From Roseibaca sp. Y0-43 (lineage in GTDB: Bacteria > Pseudomonadota > Alphaproteobacteria > Rhodobacterales > Rhodobacteraceae), in NCBI RefSeq assembly GCF_020667835.1, contig NZ_JAFMPR010000010.1:1-64000 (forward strand): 64,000 nucleotides of DNA. The letters are read 5' to 3'. Position 1 is the stretch's first letter; every line of letters starts with the position of its first letter. The position numbers were made by a program, and so were the translations under genes. Of the stretch, positions 2,538 to 16,683 are shown one piece after another. The notes beneath the pieces were generated by a model, which had not been told where the DNA came from, did no database searches, and saw nothing but the letters and a program-made list of their open reading frames with translations.

Positions 2538-3494
2538 ATGACACATGCACATCCGACCCCCGAACAGCCCCTGAAAATCGGCACGCGCGGCTCTCCGCTG
2601 GCGCTGGCGCAGGCGTATGAAACCCGGCATCGCCTGATGGCGGCACATGGCCTGCCCGAAGCGGCGTTCGAGATCATGGTCATCAAGACCACGGGGGACG
2701 ACCGCACGCTGATCGACGCGGACCGCCCGCTGAAAGAGATCGGGAACAAGGGGTTGTTCACGAAGGAAATCGAAGAGGCGATGGTCGCAGGTCGAATCGA
2801 CATTGCCGTGCATTCGATGAAGGACATGCCGACCGTTCAGCCCGAAGGGCTGACGCTGGGGTGCTACCTGCCGCGCGAGGATACGCGCGATGCCTTCGTG
2901 TCGCACAAGGCGCAAGGGATCGCCGATTTGCCAAGCGGCGCTGTTGTCGGGTCATCGTCCTTGCGCCGCCGCGCGCAACTGTTGAACAAGCGCCCCGACC
3001 TGAAAGTGGTCGAGTTTCGCGGCAATGTTCAAACCCGGCTGAAAAAGCTGCAAGATGGCGTGGCAGATTGCACCTTTCTTGCCATGGCCGGGCTGAACCG
3101 TCTGGGGATGAGCGACATCGCCACCGGCGGGATCGAACCCGAGGATATGCTGCCCGCGATTGCCCAAGGTGCGATCGGGATCGAATGGCGCATCGCGGAT
3201 ACCGCCACCGCGGAGCTGCTGTCGCCGCTGCACGACACGCCCACCGGGCAACGGCTGGCCGCGGAGCGCGCGTTTCTGGCCGCACTCGACGGGTCATGTG
3301 AAACCCCCATCGCCGGGCTTGCGCTGGTCGAGGGCGACGAGATCTGGCTGCGTGGCGAGATCCTGCGGCCTGACGGATCACAAAAACTGGCCACCGAAGG
3401 GCGCGCACCCGTGGCCGATGGCGCCGCCCTTGGCCGCGAACTGGCCGAAGAACTGCGCGGGCGCGCGCCCGCCGGGTTCTTCGACTGGCTTTAA
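2538..3494 (+). CDS. hemC: Hydroxymethylbilane synthase (porphobilinogen deaminase)
   Basis: HemC polymerises four porphobilinogens into hydroxymethylbilane. The 318-residue protein starts with the conserved [14 protein letters not shown] block and keeps the invariant aspartate region (SMKDMP), the arginine pair in SSLRRRAQ, and the cysteine of LDGSCETPI that holds the dipyrromethane cofactor. The ATG at 2538 is preferred to a GTG at 2499, because the extra 13 residues are unlike the family. The stop codon overlaps the end of murC, which runs the other way. Confidence 0.97.
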
Positions 3495-4900
3495 GCCGCC
3501 GCCTTCAGGCGCGGCACCAGCCCGTGTGCCCAGCCCGAAATCGTGCCTGCCCCAAGGCAAACGACCATGTCGCCCGGTTTGGCATGGGCGCGCACCAAAG
3601 CTTCCAGTGCTTCCTCACTGTCCACGGCGTGCACGTTGCGGTGGCCATGCGCGGTCAGTCCCGCCAGCAAGTCATCGCGGCTGGCACCCGCAATCGGGTC
3701 TTCACCGGCGGCATAGACCGGGGCGATCCCCACGACATCGGCGTCGTTGAAGCAGGTGCAGAAATCCTCGAACAGGTTTGACAGGCGGGTATAGCGGTGC
3801 GGCTGATGCACGGCGATCACGCGGCCGGTGCCACCCAGCGCCTGACGGGCGGCGCGCAAGACGGCGGCAATTTCAACCGGGTGGTGGCCGTAATCGTCGA
3901 TGATGGTCACACCATCGACCGTGCCCAGACGTGTGAAGCGACGGTTCACGCCGCCGAACTTGGCCAGCGCGCTACGGATTTCAGCCGGGTTCATCCCCAG
4001 ATGGCGCGCTGCCGCAACGGCGGACAGCGCGTTCGACACGTTGTGATCGCCCGGCATGGGCAGCGAGCAGCCTTCGATGACGCGCCCTTCGTCCTGCAAG
4101 GCGATGTCGAAATGCGCGACGCCCGCGTCATAGCGCAGGTTGATCGCGCGAATATCGGCCTGCGCGTTGAAGCCAAAGGTCACGACACGGCGGTCGGTCA
4201 GCTTGGCCACGAGCGCCTGCACTTCGGGATGGTCGGTGCAGCAGATCGCCAGCCCGTAGAACGGAATGCCGCTGGCGAAGTCGTAGAAGCCTTTGCGCAG
4301 CGCGTCGAAACTGCCCCAGTGTTCCATATGTTCGGGGTCGATATTCGTGACGATGGCGATGGTCGCGGGCAGGCGGTTGAAGCTGCCGTCCGACTCGTCC
4401 GCCTCGACCACCATCCACTCGCCTTCGCCCGCACGGGCGTTCGAGCCGTAGGCGTGGATCACGCCGCCATTGATGACGGTCGGATCAAGCCCGCCTTCGT
4501 CCAGAAGTGCGGCAACCATCGTTGTCGTGGTCGTCTTGCCATGCGTGCCCGCGACCGCGATGTTCGAGCGCAGGCGCATCAGTTCGGCCAACATCTCTGC
4601 CCGGCGCACGACAGGCAGGCCCGCCTGCCGCGCAGCCTGCAATTCGGGGTTGTCGGGCTTGATCGCGGTCGAGACGACGATCACCGCCGCGCCGTCGATA
4701 TTCTCGGCCCGCTGGCCCACGAATACCTCTGCCCCAAGGCTTTCCAGCCGCTGGGTGATGGCGCTGGCCTTCAGGTCAGACCCCTGCACGCGGTAGCCAT
4801 GGGTCATCAGCACTTCCGCGATGCCCGACATGCCAATGCCGCCGATCCCGATGAAATGGATGGGGCCAATATCGGTGGGCAGCTTGGTGGCGGGGCTCAT
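3491..4900 (-). CDS. murC: UDP-N-acetylmuramate--L-alanine ligase
   Basis: MurC is a cytoplasmic ATP-dependent ligase adding L-alanine to UDP-MurNAc, the first peptide step in peptidoglycan building. The 469-residue protein has the N-terminal nucleotide-binding [13 protein letters not shown] loop, the Mur ligase P-loop [11 protein letters not shown] near residue 115, and the C-terminal ligase domain with IIDDYGHHP. Its start overlaps the murG stop by four bases (ATGA), so translation is probably coupled. It is the last gene of the ftsW-murG-murC block. Confidence 0.97.
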
Positions 4901-5997
4901 GGGCGGTCCTTTCGGGCTAGTGCCTCGACCAGTTCGGTCAGGCGCTCTGTGGCATCCGCGCGGCCTGCGCCAAGCGCGGCCTGCGCCATTTGCGCGGCGG
5001 CGTTTGGATTTGCAAGGATGGAATGCAGGCTATCCGCCAGCGCGGGCACGGTGAACTGGCTTTCGGGAAAGACCACGGCGGCATCAACCGCGCCCAGCAT
5101 CCGCGCATTGGCGGCCTGATGATTGGCGGCGGCGGCGGCATAGGGCACCAGAATGGACGGGCGGCCAATGACGGAAATATCGGCCACCGAGGACGCGCCC
5201 GCGCGACTGATGACAAGCTGGCATTCCGACAGGCGGCGCGGAATATCGGCAAAGAATGGGGCGATTTCGGCGCGGACATTGCCAGCCTCGTAGGCGGCGA
5301 TGACGCGCTCCATATCTTCTTCGCGGGCCTGATGGGCCACCGTCAGGTTGCGCTTTATGTCATCGGGCAAGGCGCTGATTGCATCCGGCACCACATCGGA
5401 CAGGATGCGCGCACCCTGAGAGCCGCCGATCACCAACAGGTCCATCGGGTAGTCGCCCGGCGCGATATAGCCTGCGCCCGCGCGCTCCAGCACAGCGGCG
5501 CGCACCGGGTTGCCGGTAAACTGCGCATCCAGCCCGTCCGCGCCTTCGGTCGGCCACGTGCCGCAGGCCAGCACGTTCACCCGCCGCGCGAATAGATGGT
5601 TCACCCGGCCCAAAACGCCATTTTGTTCATGGATCATACGCGGCACGCGCAACAGCCACGCCGCGCCCAGCGCCGGGATGGACGGATACCCGCCGAAACC
5701 GACAACGGCCTTGGGCCGGTCGAACACCATCCCCAGCGCCGCGCCCAATATACCCGTGGCCAGCTTGAACGGCACCTTGATCTTGTCCATCAGCCCACCA
5801 CGCGCGAAGGTCGCGGCGCTGACGGTTTCAATGCGCACCGCCTCGGGAAAGCCGCCTGCGTAGCGCGCGCCGCGTGCATCGGTCGACAGCTTCACCCGCC
5901 AGCCGCGCGCCAGAAGCGCCTCTGCCAGCGCCTGCGCGGGGAACATATGCCCCCCTGTGCCCCCGGCCGCGATCAGGATAAGCGGTGCCTTGGCCAT
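4897..5997 (-). CDS. murG: UDP-GlcNAc--undecaprenyl-PP-MurNAc-pentapeptide GlcNAc transferase
   Basis: MurG adds GlcNAc to lipid I to form lipid II on the inner face of the cytoplasmic membrane. At 366 residues it has normal length. The N-terminal glycine-rich loop [17 protein letters not shown] and the C-domain signature [20 protein letters not shown] are both present. It lies between ftsW (18 bases upstream) and murC (4-base overlap), which is the usual order of the division and cell-wall cluster. Confidence 0.97.
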
Positions 5998-6015
5998 GAT
6001 TGCCCCCTGCCCTAG

Positions 6016-7179
6016 CTAGCCGCGCCGCGAGAGGATCTCGCCGATCTCGCCCTGCGGGCGTTGGCGCGTCAGTGCCAGAAGCATACCGATTGCGATACCC
6101 GTCGCAAGCAGCGACGACCCGCCATAGCTGACCAGCGGCAAAGTCATGCCTTTCGAGGGAAGCAGCCGCACCGCCACGCCCATGTTTATCATGGCCTGCA
6201 GGCTGAACACGACCGCGATGCCCGTGCCCGCCAGGCGAATGAACATGTCCCGCTCGCGCATCAGCCGGAACAGCGAGCGCAGCAGGATCGTGGCGTATAG
6301 GCCGATGATAAAGACCACAAGGATTAGCCCGTATTCTTCTGCCGCGACCGCGATGATGAAATCGGTATGCGCATCGGGCAGCGACCATTTCACCCGCCCT
6401 TCGCCCACGCCCGCGCCGAAGAAACCGCCCTCGGAGATGGCGTTTTGCGCGTAGCCCATCTGCGTGCGGGGATCGACCTCTGCGGCCAGAAACCCGTCGA
6501 TGCGGCGGGCGAAATGTTCCGAATTGTTGTAAGCGACATAGCCGCCCGCAATGACCAGCAGCGCCAGACCCGTCAGAAGCAAGATCGGTGCGCCCGCTAC
6601 GAAATACATCACGATCCAACCGGCGGAAATCAGCGCGGCCTGCCCGAAATCCGGCTGGATGACCAAAAGCCCGACCACCAGCAGCACGACCCCAAATGAA
6701 ATCGCACGCCCCGGTGGTCCACCCACATCGGCGCTGGCGGCCATCAGCCATGCGACAAAGACCGCCAGAAGCGGCTTCATGAATTCCGACGGCTGGATAG
6801 ACCCGACCCCGAAGCTATACCACCGCACCGCGCCCTTGCCGAAATCGGTTCCAAGGAAGGGCAGCAGGATCAGCGCGGCCAGCGTCAGAAGGAAACCCAC
6901 GGTCGCGAAGCGGCGGATTTTCTCGGGCGAGGCCATGGAGATCAGCAGCATCGCCCCGATCCCAAGCCCGCCGAAAAACACCTGCCGCTGAACGTAATAG
7001 AACGGGTCCAGCCCGTTGCGCTGCGCCAAGGGGGGCGACGCCGCCAGCCCCAGCAAGATGCCGACCGCCATAAGCAGCAGCACCGATGTCAGCGTCATCT
7101 TGTCGATCGTGCGCCACCAGCGCGGAAGAATCGGATCGACCACGCGCAATGGCGTGGTGCCGTAGACCATTTCCGTCAT
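6016..7179 (-). CDS. ftsW: Lipid II polymerase / division protein FtsW (SEDS family)
   Basis: FtsW is a septal peptidoglycan glycosyltransferase of the SEDS family. The 387-residue protein has about ten membrane segments, the KGAVRWYSFG and PSEFMKP motifs, and the C-terminal SLVSYGGSSLLA-like block (here PLVSYGGSSLLATG). The ATG at 7179 is chosen over one at 7257 because the longer version adds 26 polar residues not typical of FtsW. It begins the operon that continues into murG and murC. Confidence 0.95.
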   Translation of the reverse strand: MTEMVYGTTPLRVVDPILPRWWRTIDKMTLTSVLLLMAVGILLGLAASPPLAQRNGLDPFYYVQRQVFFGGLGIGAMLLISMASPEKIRRFATVGFLLTLAALILLPFLGTDFGKGAVRWYSFGVGSIQPSEFMKPLLAVFVAWLMAASADVGGPPGRAISFGVVLLVVGLLVIQPDFGQAALISAGWIVMYFVAGAPILLLTGLALLVIAGGYVAYNNSEHFARRIDGFLAAEVDPRTQMGYAQNAISEGGFFGAGVGEGRVKWSLPDAHTDFIIAVAAEEYGLILVVFIIGLYATILLRSLFRLMRERDMFIRLAGTGIAVVFSLQAMINMGVAVRLLPSKGMTLPLVSYGGSSLLATGIAIGMLLALTRQRPQGEIGEILSRRG

Positions 7180-7272
7180 TTGGCTGTCCTGCTCGGGTTG
7201 CCTGATTTGCCCGTTTTCCGGGTCTGTGGCCAACCCTACCGCGAAACCCCGCGCCAATCCAGCCCAAAGGCG

Positions 7273-8382
7273 TCAGATCGGCGCAAAGCCGCGATCAGAA
7301 ATCGCCATGGCGCGCCCGGTCTGGGCAGAGGCCTGCGCGGCCATCCCCATCAGCACGGCCCAGACGCCATCTTCCAGCCCAACCTCGACCGCGCCCTGCC
7401 CGCGCACCACATCGGCAAAGCGGGCATGTTGGTAATAGGTCGATCCATTGTGATCGCCTGCCGCCAGAAGCGCCGGATCGACCGGAATTTCCATCGCGCG
7501 TGGTCCTTTGGGACTGCGGGGGCTTTCAATCAGTTGCGGCACCGGCGGCGCGCCCAGATGCGCGGGCCAGAACCGCCCCGGCCCCGGAACAAGGCACTCG
7601 ATCTTGCCCTTGGGGCCAACGGTGGAAATCTCCTCCTGGTAGCGCGCGCCTTCGGCGAACATGCACAATTCCAGCATGGCCCGCGCGCCGCGTTTGAAAT
7701 CGACGATCACATAGGCATTGTCCCAGATATCGGGCGTCTGGCCATCGTAGCTTTCATCCAGATGGTTCACATCCTGCCCGCCCGACGCGACAACGCGCAC
7801 CGGGTCATCTTGCAGGATATGGCGCATCAGGTCGAAGAAATGACAGCATTTCTCGACCAGTGTGCCGCCCGTTTGGGCATTGAAGCGGTTCCAGTCGCCC
7901 ACCTTTTCCAGAAAAGGAAAACGGTGCTCGCGGATGGTCAGCATCCTGATCCCGCCGGTCACCCGCTCTGCGGCGTCGATCAGCGCGGCCACGGGCGGCA
8001 TGTAGCGATACTCCATTGCCACCCAGACTGGCGCGGACAAGTTCAACGCGCGCACACGCTCCAGATCGGCCGGGTCGGTGAACAGGGGCTTTTCCACCAG
8101 AACCGGGCGCGGGCTGGCCTGCGCGATCTGTTCCAGCTGGGGCAAATGCAGATGGTTGGGGCTGGTGATGACCAACGCCTCGACCGCCGGGTCTGCCAGA
8201 AGCGCATCAACACTCTCGACGAAGCGCGCATCGGGGGCCAATCGGGCGGCCTCTGCCCGCATCCCCGCATCCGGCTCATAGATGACACCCACATGCGCGC
8301 CCTCGATCAGCGCGATGTTGCGCAAGTGTTCCTGTCCCATCATGCCACAGCCGATCATGCCGTAACAAATTGCCTTGCTCAT
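7273..8382 (-). CDS. Gfo/Idh/MocA-family NAD-dependent protein, possible sulfoquinovosidase or sugar dehydrogenase
   Basis: This 369-residue protein has an N-terminal Rossmann domain (GCGMMGQEH, then EKP near residue 118) and the C-terminal Gfo/Idh/MocA sheet domain. The usual catalytic block appears as GGTLVEKCCHFFD, keeping lysine, histidine and aspartate. It is the last gene of an operon with a SmoC-like monooxygenase, a SmoB-like reductase and a sugar ABC transporter. No GH31 sulfoquinovosidase (SmoI) is present. Members of this superfamily include NAD-dependent sulfoquinovosidases (family GH188), so it may open sulfoquinovosyl glycerol. A plain sugar dehydrogenase remains possible. Confidence 0.7.
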   Translation of the reverse strand: MSKAICYGMIGCGMMGQEHLRNIALIEGAHVGVIYEPDAGMRAEAARLAPDARFVESVDALLADPAVEALVITSPNHLHLPQLEQIAQASPRPVLVEKPLFTDPADLERVRALNLSAPVWVAMEYRYMPPVAALIDAAERVTGGIRMLTIREHRFPFLEKVGDWNRFNAQTGGTLVEKCCHFFDLMRHILQDDPVRVVASGGQDVNHLDESYDGQTPDIWDNAYVIVDFKRGARAMLELCMFAEGARYQEEISTVGPKGKIECLVPGPGRFWPAHLGAPPVPQLIESPRSPKGPRAMEIPVDPALLAAGDHNGSTYYQHARFADVVRGQGAVEVGLEDGVWAVLMGMAAQASAQTGRAMAISDRGFAPI

Positions 8383-8392
8383 TGCCGTTTCC

Positions 8393-9100
8393 TTATTTCA
8401 AACGCGAGACATAACGCGCCACATTCGGGTCAAACCACGTTTCCGACACTTCCGCGCGCTGGTTGTCCTGCGACCAGCTTGTCCGCTGGATATGGGCCGC
8501 CACGGCACCGGGCCGCAGGCCAAAAGCGGGGGGCGCAAAGTCGGGGACAATCGCGGTGCCGATCCGGTCCTCGGCCCGCGCGATCCACAGGCCCAAATGC
8601 GTGCGGTAATGCAAATACAAGGATTGCGACAGATCTTCGGCGCGCAATGCACGTGCATAAGATCCGTCCAGCCAGATCTCCTCGACCGCCGCAGGCTGCC
8701 CGGACAGCAACCGCAAGCGCCGAATACGATGCGCGTCGTCCGAACGTCCGAAATCCGGTAAATGCGCGGGCTTGGGCAGGCGCGCCACGTCCAGAACCTG
8801 CGCCGAGGGCAACCCACCGCCAGCGACCAGTTCCAACCGGAACAGCGCGTAAATGCTGTCCACCTCCGGCTGCGCCCGGATATAGTTTCCGGACCCCTGC
8901 ACGCGCTCCAGCAAGCCCTTGTCGGCCAAATCCTGCAACGCTTTGCGCAGGGTGCCCACGGCCACGCCCAGATCGGCGGCCATCTCGCGCTCTGGCGCAA
9001 GACGCGCGCCATCCATCAACCGCCCGGCGGCAATATCGCGGATCAATAGCTCGCTGATCTGCTGGTAGCGCGGCAGGGCACCGCTGGGCGCATTGGACAT
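8393..9100 (-). CDS. GntR-family (HutC/UTRA type) transcriptional regulator of the sulfoquinovose-like operon
   Basis: This encodes a 235-residue regulator with an N-terminal winged helix (residues ~10-75, recognition helix [12 protein letters not shown]) and a C-terminal UTRA ligand-binding domain. Regulators of this kind bind sugars or similar small molecules and usually repress their own operon. The ATG at 9100 was chosen because it follows the ATPase stop by five bases and begins just before the conserved PRYQQISELL. Its recognition helix is identical to that of the regulator at 47942-48661, which controls another sulfonate region. Confidence 0.88.
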   Translation of the reverse strand: MSNAPSGALPRYQQISELLIRDIAAGRLMDGARLAPEREMAADLGVAVGTLRKALQDLADKGLLERVQGSGNYIRAQPEVDSIYALFRLELVAGGGLPSAQVLDVARLPKPAHLPDFGRSDDAHRIRRLRLLSGQPAAVEEIWLDGSYARALRAEDLSQSLYLHYRTHLGLWIARAEDRIGTAIVPDFAPPAFGLRPGAVAAHIQRTSWSQDNQRAEVSETWFDPNVARYVSRLK

Positions 9101-9105
9101 GGCGC

Positions 9106-10215
9106 TCAGCCCACCGCCTCGCCCAGACGCAGGCGCGGCTGCGCGACGCCATCCTGGCGGAACACATGGCACAGGTCGGGCTGCACGCCCAAGACCACCG
9201 GCGCGCCGCGCCCGAGCGCGGTCTGGCCGGACATGTGCACCGTCACCTCCACACCGTCAGGCCCGCGACAATACAAGTAACTCTCGCCGCCCAACTGCTC
9301 GACATTCTCGACCGTGGCCGCGATGCCTGGTTCGCCCTCGGCGACCGGGTGCAAATGCTCGGGGCGCACACCAAGGTCCACCTTGTTGCCGGGGTTCAGG
9401 CCGCGCCCATCGACATGGGCCACCAATTCGCGCCCGGACGGATCGCGCAACCGCGCGCCTTGCCCGTCAGCCTCAACCACCTCGCAGGCAATGAAATTCA
9501 TCCGGGGAGAGCCGATGAACCCCGCCACGAACTTGTTCGCGGGCCGGTTATACAGCTCGATCGGCGCACCCTGCTGCTCTATCCGCCCATCGCGCAACAC
9601 GACGATCCGGTCCGCCATGGTCATCGCCTCGACCTGATCGTGGGTCACATAGATCATCGTATTGCCAATGCGCCGATGCAGCGCCGCGATCTCGCCGCGC
9701 ATCGTCACGCGCAACTCGGCATCGAGGTTCGACAAGGGCTCGTCGAACAAAAACACCTTCGGCTCGCGCACAACCGCGCGCCCGATGGCCACGCGCTGGC
9801 GTTGGCCGCCCGACAGCGCCTTGGGCTTGCGGTCCAGATAGGGCTCCAGCTGCAACATGCGCGCGGCCTCGGCCACGCGGGCGTCAATTTCGGCGCGCGG
9901 CATGCGGATATTCTCCAACCCGAAGGCCAGGTTCGCGCGCACACTCATATGCGGGTAAAGCGCGTAGGTCTGGAACACCATCGCAAGCCCACGTTCGCTG
10001 GCGCGCTGGTCATTCACCCGGTCTCCACCGATCAGCAGATCGCCGCCGGTTATATCCTCCAGCCCCGCAATCATCCGCAGAAGCGTCGACTTCCCGCAGC
10101 CCGACGGCCCGACAAAGACGCAGAATTCACCATCCGCGATCTCCAGGTCCACCCCGTGGATCACCCGCACCGCACCATATTCCTTGACGATGCCCTTCAA
10201 CGACAGCCCGGCCAT
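9106..10215 (-). CDS. Sugar ABC transporter ATP-binding protein (MalK/UgpC type)
   Basis: This 369-residue ATPase powers the importer made by the two permeases upstream in the operon. It has Walker A (GPSGCGKST), the signature [12 protein letters not shown], Walker B (VFLFDEP) and the switch histidine in YVTHDQ. A C-terminal TOBE/OB domain follows, as in MalK and UgpC. The family serves carbohydrate uptake; the neighbouring monooxygenase suggests sulfoquinovose or sulfoquinovosyl glycerol as cargo. Confidence 0.92.
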   Translation of the reverse strand: MAGLSLKGIVKEYGAVRVIHGVDLEIADGEFCVFVGPSGCGKSTLLRMIAGLEDITGGDLLIGGDRVNDQRASERGLAMVFQTYALYPHMSVRANLAFGLENIRMPRAEIDARVAEAARMLQLEPYLDRKPKALSGGQRQRVAIGRAVVREPKVFLFDEPLSNLDAELRVTMRGEIAALHRRIGNTMIYVTHDQVEAMTMADRIVVLRDGRIEQQGAPIELYNRPANKFVAGFIGSPRMNFIACEVVEADGQGARLRDPSGRELVAHVDGRGLNPGNKVDLGVRPEHLHPVAEGEPGIAATVENVEQLGGESYLYCRGPDGVEVTVHMSGQTALGRGAPVVLGVQPDLCHVFRQDGVAQPRLRLGEAVG

Positions 10216-10230
10216 GCGCCCTCCCCTCTT

Positions 10231-10292
10231 TCATCCTTGCCCCAAATATCCTGGGGGAGTCGCGCATCCGCGCGACGGGGGCAAAGCCCCCC
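10231..10292. repeat. Intergenic repeat element, copy 1
   Basis: The stretch reads TCATCCTTGCCCCAAATATC, CTGGGGGAG, a short GC-rich hairpin (GTCGCGC ... GCGCGAC), then GGGGGCAAAGCCCCCC. A related copy lies at 19301-19343. Similar intergenic sequences recur in Rhodobacterales genomes, to my knowledge. It separates the ATPase gene from the permease gene inside one operon and could act as an RNA hairpin. Confidence 0.6.
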
Positions 10293-10318
10293 AAACAATA
10301 GCCTTGCGCCGCAGGCGC

Positions 10319-11362
10319 TCATTTTACGCCAGACTGGGCAATGCCCTGCGTGATGTATTTCTGCAAAAATGCGAACACGATGGTTATCGGCAACAACGTC
10401 AGCACCGTCATCGCCAACAGGTTCGACCAGCTTGTCTGCAACTCACCCTGAAAGCTGTTCAGCGCCAGTTGCAGCGTGAACACCTCTGACCGGTTCAGCA
10501 CGATCAACGGCCAGAGGAATTCGTTCCACCGCCACATGACCGAGAAGATCACCAGCACCGCCAGCGCAGGCGCGGACAGGGGCAGCACGATTTTCCAATA
10601 GACCTTCCATTCGCTTGCATTGTCCATGCGCGCGGCATCCAGCAGGTCATCGGGAATCGTCAGCATGTATTGGCGCAGCAGGAACACGCCCGTCGGCGTG
10701 GCAATCGCGGGCCAGATCACACCCCAATGGCTGTTGACCATGCCCATTTCGGATATGACCAAAAACAGCGGCACCAGCGTGATCGTCGGCGGGATCATCA
10801 ATGTCGCGATAATCAGCACGAAGACCGCGTTACGCCCGGTGAACTTGTATTTCGCCAGCGCGAAAGCGGCCATCGAGTTGAACAGCACCGTCAGGATCGT
10901 GGCGACGACCGTGATGAAGGTCGAGTTCCAGAAGTACAGCATGAAATTGAACCGCGAGAAAACGTCGGTATAGTTCTCGGTCGCGATGCCGAATTCGCGC
11001 AGCGGTTCGCGGTCGCTGATCGCCACGTTCAGCCGCTCGCTTGGGTTTGCCGGGTCCACCATCTGCGCATTCAGCCCGATGCGGCGCACCTGCGCCAGCT
11101 CGCGGCCTGCGTGCTCTCCTGCGGTGACGGTGAACATCTGCAAAGGCTGGTCAAACCCCTCGACCATCCGCTCTATCGGGGCGAGCGGCAGGAACTTGGG
11201 CGGGTATTCCTGAAGCGCGGCTTCTGTCTTGAAGCTGGACAGCACCAGCCACAGCACCGGACCCAGCATCAGGAACACGCCCAAGCCCAGAAATCCGAAG
11301 GCCATCCAGTCGGTCAGGTCGAACCCATGGCGCCCGCGCCGCCCGATCAGCCAGCCAAACAT
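10319..11362 (-). CDS. Sugar ABC transporter permease (MalG type)
   Basis: This encodes a 347-residue inner-membrane protein with about six membrane segments. The EAA-type loop that contacts the ATPase is visible in DAARMDNASEWKVYWKIVLP. The segment between the first and second membrane helices is enlarged (about 100 residues, with the AGEHAGRELAQVRRIG stretch), which is more than in a basic MalG. Its start overlaps the stop of the partner permease by one base (TGATG). Substrate is inferred from the operon. Confidence 0.9.
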   Translation of the reverse strand: MFGWLIGRRGRHGFDLTDWMAFGFLGLGVFLMLGPVLWLVLSSFKTEAALQEYPPKFLPLAPIERMVEGFDQPLQMFTVTAGEHAGRELAQVRRIGLNAQMVDPANPSERLNVAISDREPLREFGIATENYTDVFSRFNFMLYFWNSTFITVVATILTVLFNSMAAFALAKYKFTGRNAVFVLIIATLMIPPTITLVPLFLVISEMGMVNSHWGVIWPAIATPTGVFLLRQYMLTIPDDLLDAARMDNASEWKVYWKIVLPLSAPALAVLVIFSVMWRWNEFLWPLIVLNRSEVFTLQLALNSFQGELQTSWSNLLAMTVLTLLPITIVFAFLQKYITQGIAQSGVK

Positions 11363-12348
11363 CAGTTATCCCCCGATTGTTTGCGCGTGGCCGCAAGCTG
11401 GATAATGGTCAGCACGAACAGCACGCCCGCCATCAGAAGCGACGCCGCCGCCGCCAGCCCATAGAGGCGCGGACGGGTCGAGAAACCCACGTCATAGATA
11501 TATTGGATCAGCAGCGTCGTGGCAGACCCCGGCCCGCCGCCGGTCAGGACGTAAATCTCGTCAAAGGCCTGCACCGCGCGGATGACCGACAGCACCATGA
11601 CGACCAGCATCGTCGGCATCAACAGGGGCAGGGTAATGCGCCAGAGCTGCCGCCAGCGGGGCGTGCCGTCCATCTCGGCGGCCTCGTAGACGTCCGAGGG
11701 GATGGATTGCAGACCCGCGAGCAGGATCAGCACATAGAACCCCATGTTGCACCAGATCGACACGAAGACGACCCAGAAGAAGGCCCAGTCGGCTTCCAGC
11801 AGCCAGTTGATCGTGCCGAAGCCCGCGCCTTCAAGGCCTGCGTTCAGCACACCGTTGCGCTGCAAGATCCATTTCCAGATCAGCGCCACGACCACCGGCG
11901 ACAGCAGCACCGGGTAGAAAAACACCGCGCGGAAGAAGCCGCGCAGCACGATGTCGCGGTTCAGGATAAGGGCCGTGATGAGCGAGAAGAGGATCATGAA
12001 GCCGACCTGCATCAGCACGAACCAGCCGGTATTGCCGACAGCGCGCCAGAACAGGTCCCGGTGGCAGGAATTCGGGTCGAAATAGCTTTCGCAATCCAGA
12101 AGGCTCGCAAAATGCTCTGTGCCGACAAAGGGCCGATCCGCCAGGATGATGCGGTCGCCGCCCGTGGTGGCGAAGACGAAATTCAGGATGATCGGCAGGA
12201 AGGTGAACAGCCCGAAGATGACAAGGTTGGGCAGCAGGAAAACCCACGCCACCCGGCTTTGGCCGAACAGCTTTTGAAGGGCCAGCATGGGGCGTTCCAA
12301 CAGGTTGAACGCGCCTTCATAGGCTTGGACAGCCGCCGTTTTCAACAT
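11362..12348 (-). CDS. Sugar ABC transporter permease (MalF type)
   Basis: This encodes a 328-residue inner-membrane protein with about six membrane segments and the permease loop EAAEMDGTPRWRQLWRITLP that docks to the ATPase. A periplasmic loop of about 50 residues follows the first helix and carries two cysteines (LDCESYFDPNSCHRD), which could form a disulfide. It lies downstream of the binding-protein gene across a hairpin, and pairs with the MalG-type permease. Confidence 0.9.
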   Translation of the reverse strand: MLKTAAVQAYEGAFNLLERPMLALQKLFGQSRVAWVFLLPNLVIFGLFTFLPIILNFVFATTGGDRIILADRPFVGTEHFASLLDCESYFDPNSCHRDLFWRAVGNTGWFVLMQVGFMILFSLITALILNRDIVLRGFFRAVFFYPVLLSPVVVALIWKWILQRNGVLNAGLEGAGFGTINWLLEADWAFFWVVFVSIWCNMGFYVLILLAGLQSIPSDVYEAAEMDGTPRWRQLWRITLPLLMPTMLVVMVLSVIRAVQAFDEIYVLTGGGPGSATTLLIQYIYDVGFSTRPRLYGLAAAASLLMAGVLFVLTIIQLAATRKQSGDN

Positions 12349-12376
12349 GTCGCCTTCCCTTCATGGCCCGGCAAGG

Positions 12377-12409
12377 GACCGGCCCGCCCCATGGGCAGGC
12401 GAACCGGTC
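12377..12409 (-). terminator. Hairpin between binding-protein and permease genes
   Basis: GACCGG (12377-12382) pairs with CCGGTC (12404-12409), with an inner CGCC/GGCG pairing. Hairpins at this place in ABC operons often cause partial termination or protect the upstream message, giving more binding protein than permease. Confidence 0.5.
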
Positions 12410-12432
12410 AGGTCGATCGCGACAAGCGCGTG

Positions 12433-13692
12433 TTACTGCGCAATCGCCTCTGCGATGTCGGCATCCAGGCGGGCCAACGCATCGTCCAGCGACAGCTCGC
12501 CCACGATGGCCTGCGTGATGCGCGCGGGCGTTGCGGTGTAGATGGCGCGGTTATTGGCATAGCCCTGCAACGCATAGGCACTGTCCGCAAAAGTCGGGAT
12601 AGAGGCTGCGAAAGTCGTCAGCGCCGCTTTCACATCATCGCTGACATCTTGGTACTCGATCCCTTGTTCTTGCAGCACGGAATTGGCCGGAATGTTGCGG
12701 GTCTGCGCCAGAACGGCGGCCTGCACATCGTCGCGCGCCATGAATTCCATCAGCTTGCCGACGGCTTCGGGGTGTTCGGTCTGCTTGAAGCCGACGATCC
12801 CCGCGCCACCCGGCATACCCGTGCAGGCGACGGGCCCACAGATACCGCCCGTGGCAACCCAGTCGAATGCGTCGCCAATATCGCGACCAAAGCGGCCGAT
12901 CTGCCAGCTACCCGAATAATACATTACCAAATTCGCGTTGATGAATTCGGCCGCCGCATCCTGGTAGGTGCCGCCACCCGCGCCTGCCCAGACATCACGC
13001 GCCAGCGTGCCGTCTTCGTGCCACGCGACGAATTGCTCGGCGAAGCTGCGGAAGCCGTCATCGACCAAGATCGGGTCGCCGTTTTCATCGAAATAGGCAG
13101 CGCCATAGGACATGGCCGGCCCAGCGAAGCGGTGGCCGGTGCGGTCGATTGCCATTGCAAAGTCGACGCCCACGGCATCGCGCACGGCGCGGCTGGCTTC
13201 CGCCCATTCCGCGAATGTCGCGCCCGGTCCGGGCATCTCTACACCTGCTTGGTCGAACAGGGTCTTGTTGGCAAAGCCGCCCGTCGCGGTCAGCTGGTCC
13301 ACGATGTTGTAAATACCGTCGGCATTATTGTCGCCCACGCGCGCCCATGCCAGCGATTGGCCGTAACGCGCTTCAATCGCAGCGGGGTCGGACACATAGG
13401 GGCGCACATCCAGCATGAAGCGCGCCAAGCCGCCATAGTCGGTCACGCGCGCAAGGTCCGGGCCTTCGCCCACTTCCAGCTGCACCGGAAGCGATTCGAT
13501 GATCGACTGATACGGCACCTCGTCCACCACCACGGTGATGCCGGGGTTCTCGGCCTCGAACGCGGGCATTTGCGACGCCCAAGCGGCGCATTCGGTGCCA
13601 TCCTGATAGCACATGAAACGCAATTCCTGCGCGCTGGCCGCGCCTGCGGCCAAGATCAGCCCTAGGGTCGTCGTTGTCAGTGTGGTTTTCAT
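12433..13692 (-). CDS. smoF: ABC transporter sugar-binding protein, SmoF-like
   Basis: This encodes a 419-residue family-1 extracellular solute-binding protein with a signal peptide (cleavage after AGAASA, about residue 21). It captures the ligand in the periplasm and delivers it to the permeases. Two adjacent ATGs are possible; 13692 gives the better spacing from GGAGG (six bases), while 13695 would leave three. In the sulfoquinovose pathway of Agrobacterium the equivalent protein SmoF binds sulfoquinovosyl glycerol. The same role here is inferred from the neighbouring monooxygenase and reductase, not from ligand residues. Confidence 0.8.
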   Translation of the reverse strand: MKTTLTTTTLGLILAAGAASAQELRFMCYQDGTECAAWASQMPAFEAENPGITVVVDEVPYQSIIESLPVQLEVGEGPDLARVTDYGGLARFMLDVRPYVSDPAAIEARYGQSLAWARVGDNNADGIYNIVDQLTATGGFANKTLFDQAGVEMPGPGATFAEWAEASRAVRDAVGVDFAMAIDRTGHRFAGPAMSYGAAYFDENGDPILVDDGFRSFAEQFVAWHEDGTLARDVWAGAGGGTYQDAAAEFINANLVMYYSGSWQIGRFGRDIGDAFDWVATGGICGPVACTGMPGGAGIVGFKQTEHPEAVGKLMEFMARDDVQAAVLAQTRNIPANSVLQEQGIEYQDVSDDVKAALTTFAASIPTFADSAYALQGYANNRAIYTATPARITQAIVGELSLDDALARLDADIAEAIAQ

Positions 13693-13727
13693 CATTGTCC
13701 TCCCTTGATGAAAGTCCGGCCTTATGG

Positions 13728-14627
13728 TCAGGGCACCTCTTGCCCCGCCGCCGCGGTCCAGAGTTCGAACCAGTCCTCGCGTGTCAGCGTCACTTTCGCG
13801 GCATCCCCGATGCGCGCGATCCGCTGTAGCGAATTCGTGCCCAGCACCGGCAGAATGCGGGCCGGATGTGCCAGAAGCCACGCTACCGCGACCGCGTCCA
13901 TACCCACCCCTTGCGCTTTTGCGTGCCGTTCCAGATGCGGGCGCAAGCGCATGGCCGCGTCGCCCTCTCCGAACAGCGCGCCGCCGCCCAAGGGCGACCA
14001 TGCCATCGGGGGCAGGCCAAGCTTTTGCAGATGTGCCAGATCGCCATTCGTGAACGCGTCCCGCGCCAGTAGGCTGATCTCGATCTGGTTGGTGCAAAGC
14101 GGCGTCGTCATGGCAGATTGCAGCAAATCCCAATCCCATGGCCGGAAATTCGACACGCCCACGGCGCGCAGCTTGCCTTCGGCTACCAATGCATCCAGCA
14201 CCGCGCCGGTTTCCTGATGGTCCATCAGCGGGTCGGGGCGGTGGATCAGCAACAGGTCAATCCGGTCGGTCGCCATATTGCTGAGCGACGCCTCGACCGA
14301 GGCGCGGATATGCGCGGCGCTGGTGTCGTAATACTTCACCCGCGCCGAGGCATATTTGCCGATCGGGGCCACGATGTCGCATTTCGTGACCAGTTCCACC
14401 TTGTCGCGCAGGCCGGGGCTTGCACGAAATGCCGCGCCGAGCAACGCCTCTGCGCCATAGTCGCCATAGATGTCGGCCTGGTCCATGGTGGTGATGCCTT
14501 GGGCCAAGCACGCCTCGACCTTAGCTTGCACATGGGCGGGGCTGGTGTCGGCGTCATCGCCCAGCCGCCACATGCCATAGACAAGTCGCGACAAGGACAA
14601 GCTGTCGGTCAGATCAACACGTTCCAT
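13728..14627 (-). CDS. smoB: Aldo/keto reductase, SmoB-like 6-oxo-glucose reductase
   Basis: This 299-residue TIM-barrel reductase belongs to the YdhF-like aldo/keto reductases. The catalytic tetrad regions are visible: DQADIYGDYG (Asp, Tyr), the lysine of VTKCDIV, and the histidine of LLIHRPDP. In the sulfo-SMO pathway SmoB reduces 6-dehydroglucose, left after sulfite is cut off, to glucose using NADPH. The N-terminal block LVYGMWRLGDDADTSP agrees with what I recall of SmoB. Its start overlaps the monooxygenase stop by one base, which supports a shared pathway. General reductase function is certain; the substrate is inferred. Confidence 0.8.
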   Translation of the reverse strand: MERVDLTDSLSLSRLVYGMWRLGDDADTSPAHVQAKVEACLAQGITTMDQADIYGDYGAEALLGAAFRASPGLRDKVELVTKCDIVAPIGKYASARVKYYDTSAAHIRASVEASLSNMATDRIDLLLIHRPDPLMDHQETGAVLDALVAEGKLRAVGVSNFRPWDWDLLQSAMTTPLCTNQIEISLLARDAFTNGDLAHLQKLGLPPMAWSPLGGGALFGEGDAAMRLRPHLERHAKAQGVGMDAVAVAWLLAHPARILPVLGTNSLQRIARIGDAAKVTLTREDWFELWTAAAGQEVP

Positions 14628-15784
14628 CAGACACGCTCCCCCACGCCCAGGGGCGTTGCCGGTGTTTCACTTGGCACGCGGCCATATTCATGCGGCAGCG
14701 AGCAGGTCGCCAGATTCGGCATGACCAACCGCCCGAATTGCTGGCATTCGTCCAGATGCGGATAGCCAGAAAAGATGAAGGCACGGATGCCCATCTTACG
14801 GTAACGCTCCAGCTTCGACAGCACCTGATCGGCGCTGCCCACAAGCGCCGCGCCACAGCCGGAACGCGCGCGACCCACGCCTGTCCAAAGGTTCGGTTCG
14901 GTATAGCCGAACTGGTCGGCCAATTCGCGCGCGCGCGCCTGATGTGACACGCCCAGACTGCCGCTGTCATGCGCGCGTTCGCGGATCAGGCGGCCATACT
15001 CGTCGTCCAGTTTGCTGACCAGATGGTCGGCGTATTCGCGCGCCTCTGCTTCGGTATCACGGACGATGACATGCACCCGCAGCCCGTAATCCAGCGTGCG
15101 GCCATGCGCCTCTGCCCTTGCATGGACCGCGCGCATCCGCTCGGCCAGTTGATCCTCGGTTTCGGGCCACATAAGGTAGACGTCGCATTGCGCCGCGCAC
15201 AGCTCTAGCGCATCGGGCGAATAGCCGCCAAAATACAGAAGCGGTCCGCCGTTTTGCTGGTAGGGCTTGGCGGGCGCGGTGGGCACGCCCTTGAACTGGT
15301 AGATCTCGCCCTCGTGGTTGATCTCGTCCCGTTCCCACGCCTGCCGCAGGATCTGCACCACCTCATGGCTGCGTTTGTAGCGATAGGCGCTGTCGGCCAC
15401 TTCGCCCGGAAAATCGGAACTGATGACATTCAGCGTCAGCCGACCTTTGAGCATGTGATCCAAGGTCGCCACGGTGCGGGCGAGCATGATGGGCTGCATC
15501 TCTCCGCAGCGAATGGCGGCCAGCATGTTGATCCGTTCCGTGACCTGACTGCCCGCCGCGACGAAACTGAGCGTGTCTTGCCCCACCTGATAGCTGGACG
15601 GGCACAGGATGTTGCGGAACCCCTGCGCTTCGGCGGATTTCAGAATGTCGCTACAATGCGCCCAACTGGACCGCAGCGCGCCATCTGGAACACCAAGAAA
15701 CTGGTAGTCATCCGAACAGAGCGCGGCGAACCACGATATTTCGGCCGCCTCCAGATCGCCCGAAGTGACGGGAACGATGGTCAT
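14627..15784 (-). CDS. smoC: FMNH2-dependent sulfonate monooxygenase, SmoC-like (sulfoquinovose monooxygenase)
   Basis: This 385-residue protein is an LLM-class flavin monooxygenase of the SsuD group, which splits C-S bonds with FMNH2 and oxygen to release sulfite. SsuD-family features include the N-terminal EISWF strand, the CPSSYQVGQDTLSF segment, the RCGEMQP region and the RSGCGAALVGS loop. The gene leads an operon holding a SmoB-like reductase and a sugar importer, so sulfoquinovose is a better substrate guess than simple alkanesulfonates. A GGAGGA site lies six bases before the ATG. No flavin reductase (SmoA) is encoded nearby, so FMNH2 must come from elsewhere. Confidence 0.82.
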   Translation of the reverse strand: MTIVPVTSGDLEAAEISWFAALCSDDYQFLGVPDGALRSSWAHCSDILKSAEAQGFRNILCPSSYQVGQDTLSFVAAGSQVTERINMLAAIRCGEMQPIMLARTVATLDHMLKGRLTLNVISSDFPGEVADSAYRYKRSHEVVQILRQAWERDEINHEGEIYQFKGVPTAPAKPYQQNGGPLLYFGGYSPDALELCAAQCDVYLMWPETEDQLAERMRAVHARAEAHGRTLDYGLRVHVIVRDTEAEAREYADHLVSKLDDEYGRLIRERAHDSGSLGVSHQARARELADQFGYTEPNLWTGVGRARSGCGAALVGSADQVLSKLERYRKMGIRAFIFSGYPHLDECQQFGRLVMPNLATCSLPHEYGRVPSETPATPLGVGERV

Positions 15785-15826: not shown

Positions 15827-15855
15827 ACCGTAGCAAAGCGGATTTTGTAAATCAA
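15827..15855 (-). promoter_or_regulatory. Predicted promoter of the sulfoquinovose-like operon
   Basis: On the minus strand TTGATT (15855-15850) and TACGGT (15832-15827) are spaced by 17 bases, placing the start about 36 bases before the monooxygenase ATG. A direct repeat ATCAAT, at 15851-15856 and 15862-15867 (11-base period, one helix turn), covers the -35 box and could be a regulator site. Confidence 0.45.
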
Positions 15856-15911
15856 TAATGTATCAATTTGGCCGGGCAGAAAAATGCTTGCGATCTCAGA
15901 GCGGCCCATTT

Positions 15912-15928
15912 ATTAGAATAATTCTAAT
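15912..15928. promoter_or_regulatory. Irr-type iron control element (ICE-like box)
   Basis: ATTAGAATAATTCTAAT is an inverted repeat with 8-base arms around one centre base. It contains TTAGAA-N3-TTCTAA, matching the iron control element bound by the haem-sensing regulator Irr in alphaproteobacteria (TTTAGAA-N3-TTCTAAA). It ends 14 bases before the ZIP transporter start, a position that suggests repression. Confidence 0.6.
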
Positions 15929-15942
15929 TTAAGAGAATCGCC

Positions 15943-16683
15943 ATGACTGAGCCTACCCTCCTGATCGTCTTCATCGCGGCCCTTGTTACCGCCCTGGCCA
16001 CCGGCCTTGGCGCGCTGCCGCTTTTGGCCGCGCGCTCTATGTCGGGGCGCGCACTATCCATGGGCAACGCGCTGGCGGCGGGTCTTATGCTGGCAGCAAG
16101 CGCGACGCTGGTGATGGAAGGGTTCGAATTGTCCGGCCCGCGCACCATCGGCGGCATCGTTCTGGGTGTCTTTGCCATCTGGCTGGTCAAGAAACTGCTG
16201 GACCGCCAAGGGGAAGTCAGCCTGGGCGACATGCAGGGCGCCGACGCCATGAAAGTGCTGATGATCATGGGGGTCATGACCGCGCATTCCGCCGCCGAAG
16301 GCATTGGTGTGGGTGTGGCCTTTGGCGGCGGCCGCCCGCTGGGTGACCTGATTACGATTGCAATCGCCCTGCATAACGTGCCCGAGGGGCTGGCGATTGC
16401 GTTGGTGATGGTGCCGCGCGGCGCAAGCGTGGCCAAGGCGGGCTGGTGGGCAATCGTGTCGTCGCTGCCGCAGCCCTTGCTGGCGGTCCCGGCCTTTCTG
16501 TTCGTGCTCTATTTCGCGCCAATCCTGCCCGTGGGCCTGGGCCTCGCAGCCGGGGCAATGCTGTGGATGATCTTCTCGGAACTCTTGCCAGAGGCGCAGG
16601 AAGATGCCGACAACTCGACCGTCGCCGTGGTCGTCACATTGGCCTTCGCCGCGATGATGGCCGCGACGCTCGTTCTGGGCTGA
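15943..16683 (+). CDS. ZIP-family metal transporter
   Basis: This encodes a 246-residue inner-membrane protein with about eight membrane segments. The two metal-site helices of the ZIP family are clear: HSAAEGIGVG near residue 110 and HNVPEGLAIA near residue 145, each pairing histidine with glutamate. ZIP proteins move zinc, iron or manganese toward the cytoplasm. An Irr-like box overlaps the region just before the ribosome site, so iron or haem status may control it. The gene stands alone between the sulfonate operon and rlmH. The metal is unknown. Confidence 0.88.
   Translation: MTEPTLLIVFIAALVTALATGLGALPLLAARSMSGRALSMGNALAAGLMLAASATLVMEGFELSGPRTIGGIVLGVFAIWLVKKLLDRQGEVSLGDMQGADAMKVLMIMGVMTAHSAAEGIGVGVAFGGGRPLGDLITIAIALHNVPEGLAIALVMVPRGASVAKAGWWAIVSSLPQPLLAVPAFLFVLYFAPILPVGLGLAAGAMLWMIFSELLPEAQEDADNSTVAVVVTLAFAAMMAATLVLG

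Follow-up and report, generated by a model that had tools for sequence, protein, structure and literature searches.

Which compound does the operon at positions 7273–15784 of this Roseibaca sp. Y0-43 contig serve, and what controls it? The window, by which we mean the whole stretch of 64,000 nucleotides analyzed, carries on its minus strand an eight-gene operon running from 15784 to 7273, in a genome of 3.03 Mb (G000). A preliminary description, made from the sequence, had read it as a candidate sulfoquinovose monooxygenase (sulfo-SMO) operon. Sulfoquinovose (SQ) is a sulfur sugar that abounds in the membranes of plants and algae. Its output has been put at about ten billion tons per year (PMC10755693). 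Our analysis supports the earlier reading: with a probability of roughly 93%, this is a sulfo-SMO (sulfo-ASMO) operon for the use of SQ and SQ glycosides, in which SmoC and SmoB are both assigned by alignment scores and by identity to an Agrobacterium locus. Upstream of smoC lies a conserved 22-bp promoter-operator element, which might be the part that a specialist finds new. The pathway itself is established, sulfo-SMO operons with a GH188 hydrolase are already in print (PMC10755693), and what the locus chiefly contributes is a Roseibaca-like genome among the probable SQ users, as a known pathway in an uncommon layout, with rearranged genes and a less usual type of importer.

The operon encodes homologs of SmoC and SmoB

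The place, strand and family of all eight genes in the preliminary description were borne out by open reading frame (ORF) coordinates and Pfam domains. Its statement that the genes overlap by 1 base held at two of the seven junctions, smoC/smoB (14627) and permease 1/permease 2 (11362), and failed at the other five, where the gene coordinates leave gaps of about 32, 84, 103, 5 and 10 bases.

The first gene, smoC (14627–15784, 385 amino acids (aa)), is predicted to encode an FMNH2-dependent SQ monooxygenase, which Pfam places in the luciferase-like family. In end-to-end alignment its product scored 756 bits with PDB chain 7olf (titled ‘Methanesulfonate sulfonatase’) and 749 bits with 7oh2 (‘Alkanesulfonate monooxygenase’), both of which we take to be SmoC chains, compared with 202 bits for SsuD (1nqk, 1m41). 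On the SsuD equivalog profile TIGR03565 it reached 248 bits, where the cut-off is 518. The second gene, smoB (13728–14627, 299 aa), would encode the 6-oxo-glucose (6-dehydroglucose) reductase, an aldo/keto reductase; it scored 447 bits with 7bby/7bbz (7bby is titled ‘Aryl-alcohol dehydrogenase’), presumably SmoB, with the next chain, 7twz, at 224 bits and YdhF (1og6) at 212. These assignments are anchored by locus L052, on a contig titled Agrobacterium tumefaciens, where the binding protein has PDB 7nbz (‘Sulfoquinovosyl glycerol-binding protein SmoF’) as a match. This locus also has a GH31 protein, two permeases, an ABC ATPase, a GntR regulator, SmoC, SmoB and a SmoA homolog, and the window proteins are 83.9% identical to its SmoC (384 aa) and 66.9% identical to its SmoB (299 aa). 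For the enzymes, Pfam and NCBIfam returned names that are weak or at superfamily level, and neither names SmoC, SmoB or GH188.

Closer similarity to SsuD or to unrelated aldo/keto reductases, which had been set beforehand as grounds for abandoning the sulfo-SMO reading, was not observed in the scores. In PMC13372026 a genome with SmoB and SmoC matches at most 10 ORFs apart was scored as sulfo-SMO-positive; here smoB adjoins smoC. A general alkanesulfonate (Ssu) or methanesulfonate desulfonation operon, serving sulfur scavenging, would agree with the place of SmoC within the SsuD group and with the PDB title of 7olf, but the monooxygenase falls well below the SsuD cut-off, the importer is of sugar type, and smoB and a GH188 sulfoquinovosidase gene are linked to it, so that we regard such an operon as extremely improbable. 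As an identity for the monooxygenase itself, SsuD was ruled out on the same scores.

Some observations, at the active site and in the gene content, tell against the sulfo-SMO reading. The preliminary description had suggested alignment with SmoC and SmoB and a look at the sulfonate-binding residues. The similarity was confirmed, and SmoC residues W206, R236, H238, Y341 and H343, which we take to be the sulfonate site of Sharma et al. 2022, are kept in 104/104 smoC loci (surveyed below), but they have the same letters in the SsuD alignment and are therefore diagnostic of the sulfonate site rather than of the sugar. The operon also contains no smoA. A flavin-reductase homolog lies on contig 53 (G000:C53:92764-93267) and shares 53% identity over 150 aa with the smoA that adjoins smoB in locus L116; the homolog in Rhabdonatronobacter sediminivivens (L037, genome G037) is 62% identical to the contig-53 protein. 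Flavin reductases of the smoA type are widespread (154 of 198 genomes of the family), so that a working smoA on contig 53 is something we infer. Clusters without SsuE presumably rely on other flavin reductases (PMC9594981), and a missing smoA thus does not exclude membership of the sulfo-SMO group.

A predicted GH188 sulfoquinovosidase

The last gene of the operon (7273–8382, 369 aa) had been described as a Gfo/Idh/MocA protein on the operon strand, which is correct as to family and strand, but its GH188 identity had been missed. We assign it, from its sequence, as an sqgA-like gene for a GH188 NAD+-dependent sulfoquinovosidase. Its product scored 534 bits with 8zn9 (‘Oxidoreductase, putative’) and 381–383 bits with 8qc2/8qc3, with the next chain at 54 bits. 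The latter two are the published structures of SqgA; GH188 enzymes are NAD+-dependent sulfoquinovosidases, near-universal in the sulfo-SMO clusters of marine Roseobacter-clade bacteria (PMC10755693). The ArSqgA residues named in the same paper (K107, Y136, E189, H193 and H321, with sulfonate contacts R166, L170 and K172) were mapped by hand on the PDB alignment (chain number minus 13) to K98, Y125, E177, H181 and H311, with R154, L158 and K160 for the sulfonate. All eight are kept here and are invariant in the 69/69 loci with a GH188 match. Glu163 of that paper falls one place off (V), the neighboring Glu being E152 here, and was left out of the tally. No GH31 sulfoquinovosidase match was found in the window genome at E ≤ 0.001, in a search that was positive in 6 of 14 control genomes. 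Its GH188 gene predicts that the operon is probably able to use SQ glycosides.

Instead of sulfolipid SQ, the substrate could be a different 6-sulfo sugar or glycoside, such as sulfofucose or a beta-linked sulfoquinovoside. Such a substrate would be in keeping with a binding protein unlike SmoF (see below) and with a characterized GH188 enzyme that accepts both alpha- and beta-SQ glycosides (PMC10755693). We hold it to be very unlikely, as the sulfonate- and hydroxyl-binding residues of the GH188 protein match the published SQ complexes (PMC10755693) and SmoC shares 84% identity with the Agrobacterium-type enzyme.

With SQ as the substrate, the steps can be proposed by analogy to homologous characterized enzymes. 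Using bound NAD+, the GH188 enzyme would hydrolyze the glycoside by oxidation at C3, elimination of the aglycone, addition of water and re-reduction, freeing SQ. SmoC would then cleave the C–S bond oxygenolytically with FMNH2 and O2, yielding sulfite and 6-oxo-glucose, which SmoB would reduce to glucose for central metabolism. The FMNH2 may come from the smoA-like reductase on contig 53 or from another reductase.

Candidates for handling sulfite in the genome are four TauE-family proteins and one Oxidored_molyb protein, none of them in the operon. The sole Oxidored_molyb match (G000:C44:242559-243026, locus L185) also has a Mo-co dimerisation domain. We take this gene to be SoxC, with a SoxB-like gene upstream; from this context, sulfite might enter a Sox system.

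Survey of smoC loci

Counted at E ≤ 1e-100, smoC is present in 88 of the 198 family genomes. The loci were classed by best tblastn scores, 107 in all: 80 named loci, which are the best 80 by SmoC match and therefore weighted toward close SmoC; 20 regions hand-picked from the 88 smoC genomes; and 7 regions fetched because an ABC importer of the window type lies near smoC. Removal of the duplicates L113, L114 and L116 left 104 loci, and reference proteins for TRAP, flavin reductase and GH31 were confirmed by Pfam. The hydrolase was GH188 in 69 loci and GH31 in 28, with both in 0 and neither in 7. The commonest importer among the classed loci was TRAP (36/104; 34 with GH188, 2 with neither hydrolase); the window-type ABC was found in 27 (24 with GH188, 3 on short contigs) and the SmoF-type ABC in 19, all with GH31, while 22 had no recognized importer.

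In 92/104 loci the regulator gene gntR adjoins smoC and diverges from it; in four (L034, L035, L037, L178), gntR and GH188 both lie on the smoC strand. The layout of the window, with one strand throughout and no smoA in the locus, is common to L034 and L035, which hold the eight-gene set in identical order with 83–96% protein identity per gene, far beyond chance. L035 (Roseibaca ekhonensis CECT 7235; 95% SmoC identity) is the nearest species-named relative among the matches listed, in which two metagenome-assembled contigs are closer in SmoC (97 and 96%).

The Roseobacter-clade clusters with GH188 (PMC10755693) have in common with the window SmoC, SmoB, a GntR-type regulator, GH188 and no GH31. 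In contrast to the usual divergent gntR, the window genes are all on one strand, with an ABC importer where a TRAP importer would stand and without smoA. The Agrobacterium smo cluster (L052) shares SmoC, SmoB, the GntR regulator, an ABC sugar importer and the 22-bp element before smoC, but has GH31 and SmoF where the window has GH188 and a binding protein without significant similarity to SmoF. The preliminary description, which had drawn the likeness to the Agrobacterium smo logic, had missed that the binding protein is not SmoF-like. R. sediminivivens (L037/L114) has the same gene order and ABC type (84–86% identity for binding protein and permeases), but keeps a smoA homolog on the opposite strand between the ATPase gene and gntR, where the window operon has none.

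Some surveyed loci depart further from these patterns. Eight (L042, L045, L048, L059, L066, L082, L093, L178) have smoC, GH188 and the window-type ABC with no SmoB homolog at the score used; L110 is a ninth, ended by its contig edge. In the two of these that were inspected, L045 and L059, a KduI-like gene comes after the ABC (with a Pfam match in L045), as does a gene for an 826-aa protein, whose L045 copy had no Pfam, NCBIfam or meaningful PDB match. Loci without SmoB may handle 6-oxo-glucose differently. Locus L197 (G040:C37:3000-15000) has the element, smoB, smoA, TRAP, gntR and GH188, with smoC absent from its expected place; no smoC was found anywhere in G040 at E ≤ 1e-100.

A conserved 22-bp element upstream of smoC

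On the minus strand upstream of smoC lies the element AATTGATACATTATTGATTTAC (15847–15868), with two direct ATTGAT half-sites 11 bases apart. Counts of 8-mers in 105 upstream regions (the 104 loci plus the window) found AATTGATA in 91. The whole element recurs upstream of smoC at ≤4 mismatches in 99/105 regions, the window included, and the other six have at least 7 mismatches; simple shuffles gave 4 mismatches in 2/2100 and never fewer. AATTGATACANNATTGATNTAC stands at 15847–15868 with zero mismatches and is the sole copy in the window at ≤3 mismatches (0 expected, from 100 shuffles), with no second copy at that threshold in the 3.03-Mb genome. The element ends 41–89 bases from the smoC start codon (62 in the window). 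Sequence upstream of it is poorly conserved, and a TGnTA block (columns 34–38 of the 99-row upstream alignment) starts 11 bases downstream.

Read from the sequence, TTGATT within the second half-site is a candidate -35 (15850–15855, minus strand), and TGC TACGGT (15827–15835, minus strand), which holds the TGnTA block, is a candidate extended -10, giving a promoter with 17-base spacing. This overlap would suit an element that is a strong core promoter with no regulator site. We find that rather unlikely: the first half, AATTGATACA, which stands before the -35, varies about as little as the second, and the element is nearly confined to genomes with smoC. A looser pattern, AATTGATACANNATTGATNNAC at ≤1 mismatch, was run over the 198 family genomes and occurred in 74, namely 73/88 with smoC and 1/110 without; the same pattern read backwards, as a control, gave one match in all 198. 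The association with smoC (Fisher 9e-38) is a guide only, because the genomes are related to one another and overlapping loci were used to derive the pattern. Its independent part is the rarity of the element in smoC-less genomes.

Of 80 looser sites, 72 are no more than 1.5 kb from smoC and 8 are stray. Two of the stray sites precede GH188 genes distant from smoC, in G112 and in G151 (in reverse orientation in G151). A further one in G112 precedes an operon for a window-type ABC, one in G037 separates smoA from gntR (the second copy in R. sediminivivens), and one in G040 precedes smoB in its smoC-less cluster; three (G032, G115 and contig 6 of G112) have other or unrecognized neighbors. That five of the eight lie beside GH188, smoA, smoB or a window-type ABC supports this ABC as the importer. 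G183 and L052 have weaker sites, with 2 mismatches, the former before its window-type ABC and the latter before its ABC ATPase gene. Before the other window genes and the smoA homolog of the genome, nothing better than 9 mismatches was found.

The probable partner of the element is the GntR/UTRA (HutC-type) regulator of the operon (8393–9100; PF00392 and PF07702), a homolog of which is present in 97/104 smoC loci. Its start is most likely ATG 9100, 5 bases past the ATPase stop, rather than the upstream GTG 9172. Some HutC-type GntR regulators recognize direct repeats (PMC4494728), which makes a repeat of this kind plausible for the window regulator. From the context, the GntR/UTRA protein would probably repress the smoC promoter by way of the 22-bp direct repeat overlapping the -35, and an SQ-type ligand would release it.

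On balance we favor the view that an SQ regulon, defined by a single GntR/UTRA regulator and a single 22-bp direct-repeat promoter-operator element, has persisted in Rhodobacteraceae and Rhizobiaceae through the reshuffling of its members (GH31 or GH188; SmoF-ABC, TRAP or a third ABC; smoA attached or detached). Unlinked SQ genes could then be located by means of the element, and the window-type ABC would be a distinct class of SQ(-glycoside) importer. An element this specific points to pathway genes at a distance from the main cluster and gives a direct way to test the regulator. A literature search found, among the papers listed, no description of the element and no account of how sulfo-SMO clusters are regulated, a result that does not establish absence from print.

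Two further neighborhoods of the element in G112 were noted. On contig 8 (L203, G112:C8, 1533–4337), two Sulfatase-family genes are divergent from the element-preceded window-type ABC operon. On contig 6 (L202, G112:C6, 4169–8695), a copy of the element is flanked by a glycerol-3-phosphate oxidase/dehydrogenase-like gene (DAO, DAO_C) and by a gene for a periplasmic sugar-binding protein; hydrolysis of SQ-glycerol would release glycerol as a by-product.

The ABC importer

Four genes of the operon encode the importer: a solute-binding protein (12433–13695; PF01547, SBP_bac_1), permease 1 (11362–12348; PF00528, BPD_transp_1), permease 2 (10319–11362, 347 aa; PF00528 only at residues 165–341) and a MalK/UgpC-type ATPase (9106–10215; PF00005, TOBE_2, OB_MalK), which passed the cut-off of the UgpC subfamily profile (471 bits; cut-off 432). 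In Pfam and NCBIfam these are families of sugar importers, as the preliminary description had said. SmoF was not among the 7 PDB matches of the binding protein, and homology to SmoF was rejected at the sequence level. The same type of ABC stands in the smoC locus, 2–9 kb off, in its 27 of 104 loci, including Rhizobiaceae and a Tagaea (20/97 once the seven loci fetched for that ABC are removed). Relatives of the binding protein with 44–47% identity share a locus with smoC in several Rhizobiaceae. We propose from this context that the window-type ABC takes up SQ-glycerol and/or SQ, as a candidate importer class distinct from SmoF and TRAP.

Several further results count against the proposed working of the operon, importer and regulation included. 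Fifteen of the 88 smoC genomes lack the looser element, smoC-less G040 has it, and the best match near the flavin reductase on contig 53 is poor (10 mismatches). Among the binding-protein genes checked for a site (30 of 38), the element is directly upstream only in G112 and G183; the other 28 have none (at least 6 mismatches), the window gene among them, as is expected inside an operon. The best alignment of the binding protein with SmoF is 22.8% over 189 aa (E 0.025). In the family genomes with a window-type binding protein (E ≤ 1e-60), it lies ≤15 kb from smoC in 11/38 and away from it in 27/38, which, with the want of kinship to SmoF, means that homology alone does not point to a substrate.

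That distribution, and the prevalence of TRAP, would also be seen if the ABC were an unrelated sugar importer that had landed in the operon, with SQ entering otherwise. The recurrence of this ABC close to smoC and the two distant copies preceded by the element (G112, G183) speak against such an accident, which we judge unlikely.

Neighboring genes

The operon adjoins ftsW-murG-murC (3491–7257; genes named by reading the sequence). Three further Mur-ligase matches, likely murE, murF and murD, lie on contig 54 (G000:C54:54988-59671) and one on contig 51, and the cell-wall gene cluster seems broken at ftsW. In L034 and L035 as well, the operon is flanked by ftsW and a ZIP metal-transporter gene (window 15943–16683). 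A TTAGAA-TTA-TTCTAA palindrome at 15913–15927 ends 15 bases before the ZIP gene, and similar palindromes stand upstream in L034 and L035; we take it to resemble an iron-control (Irr/ICE) box.

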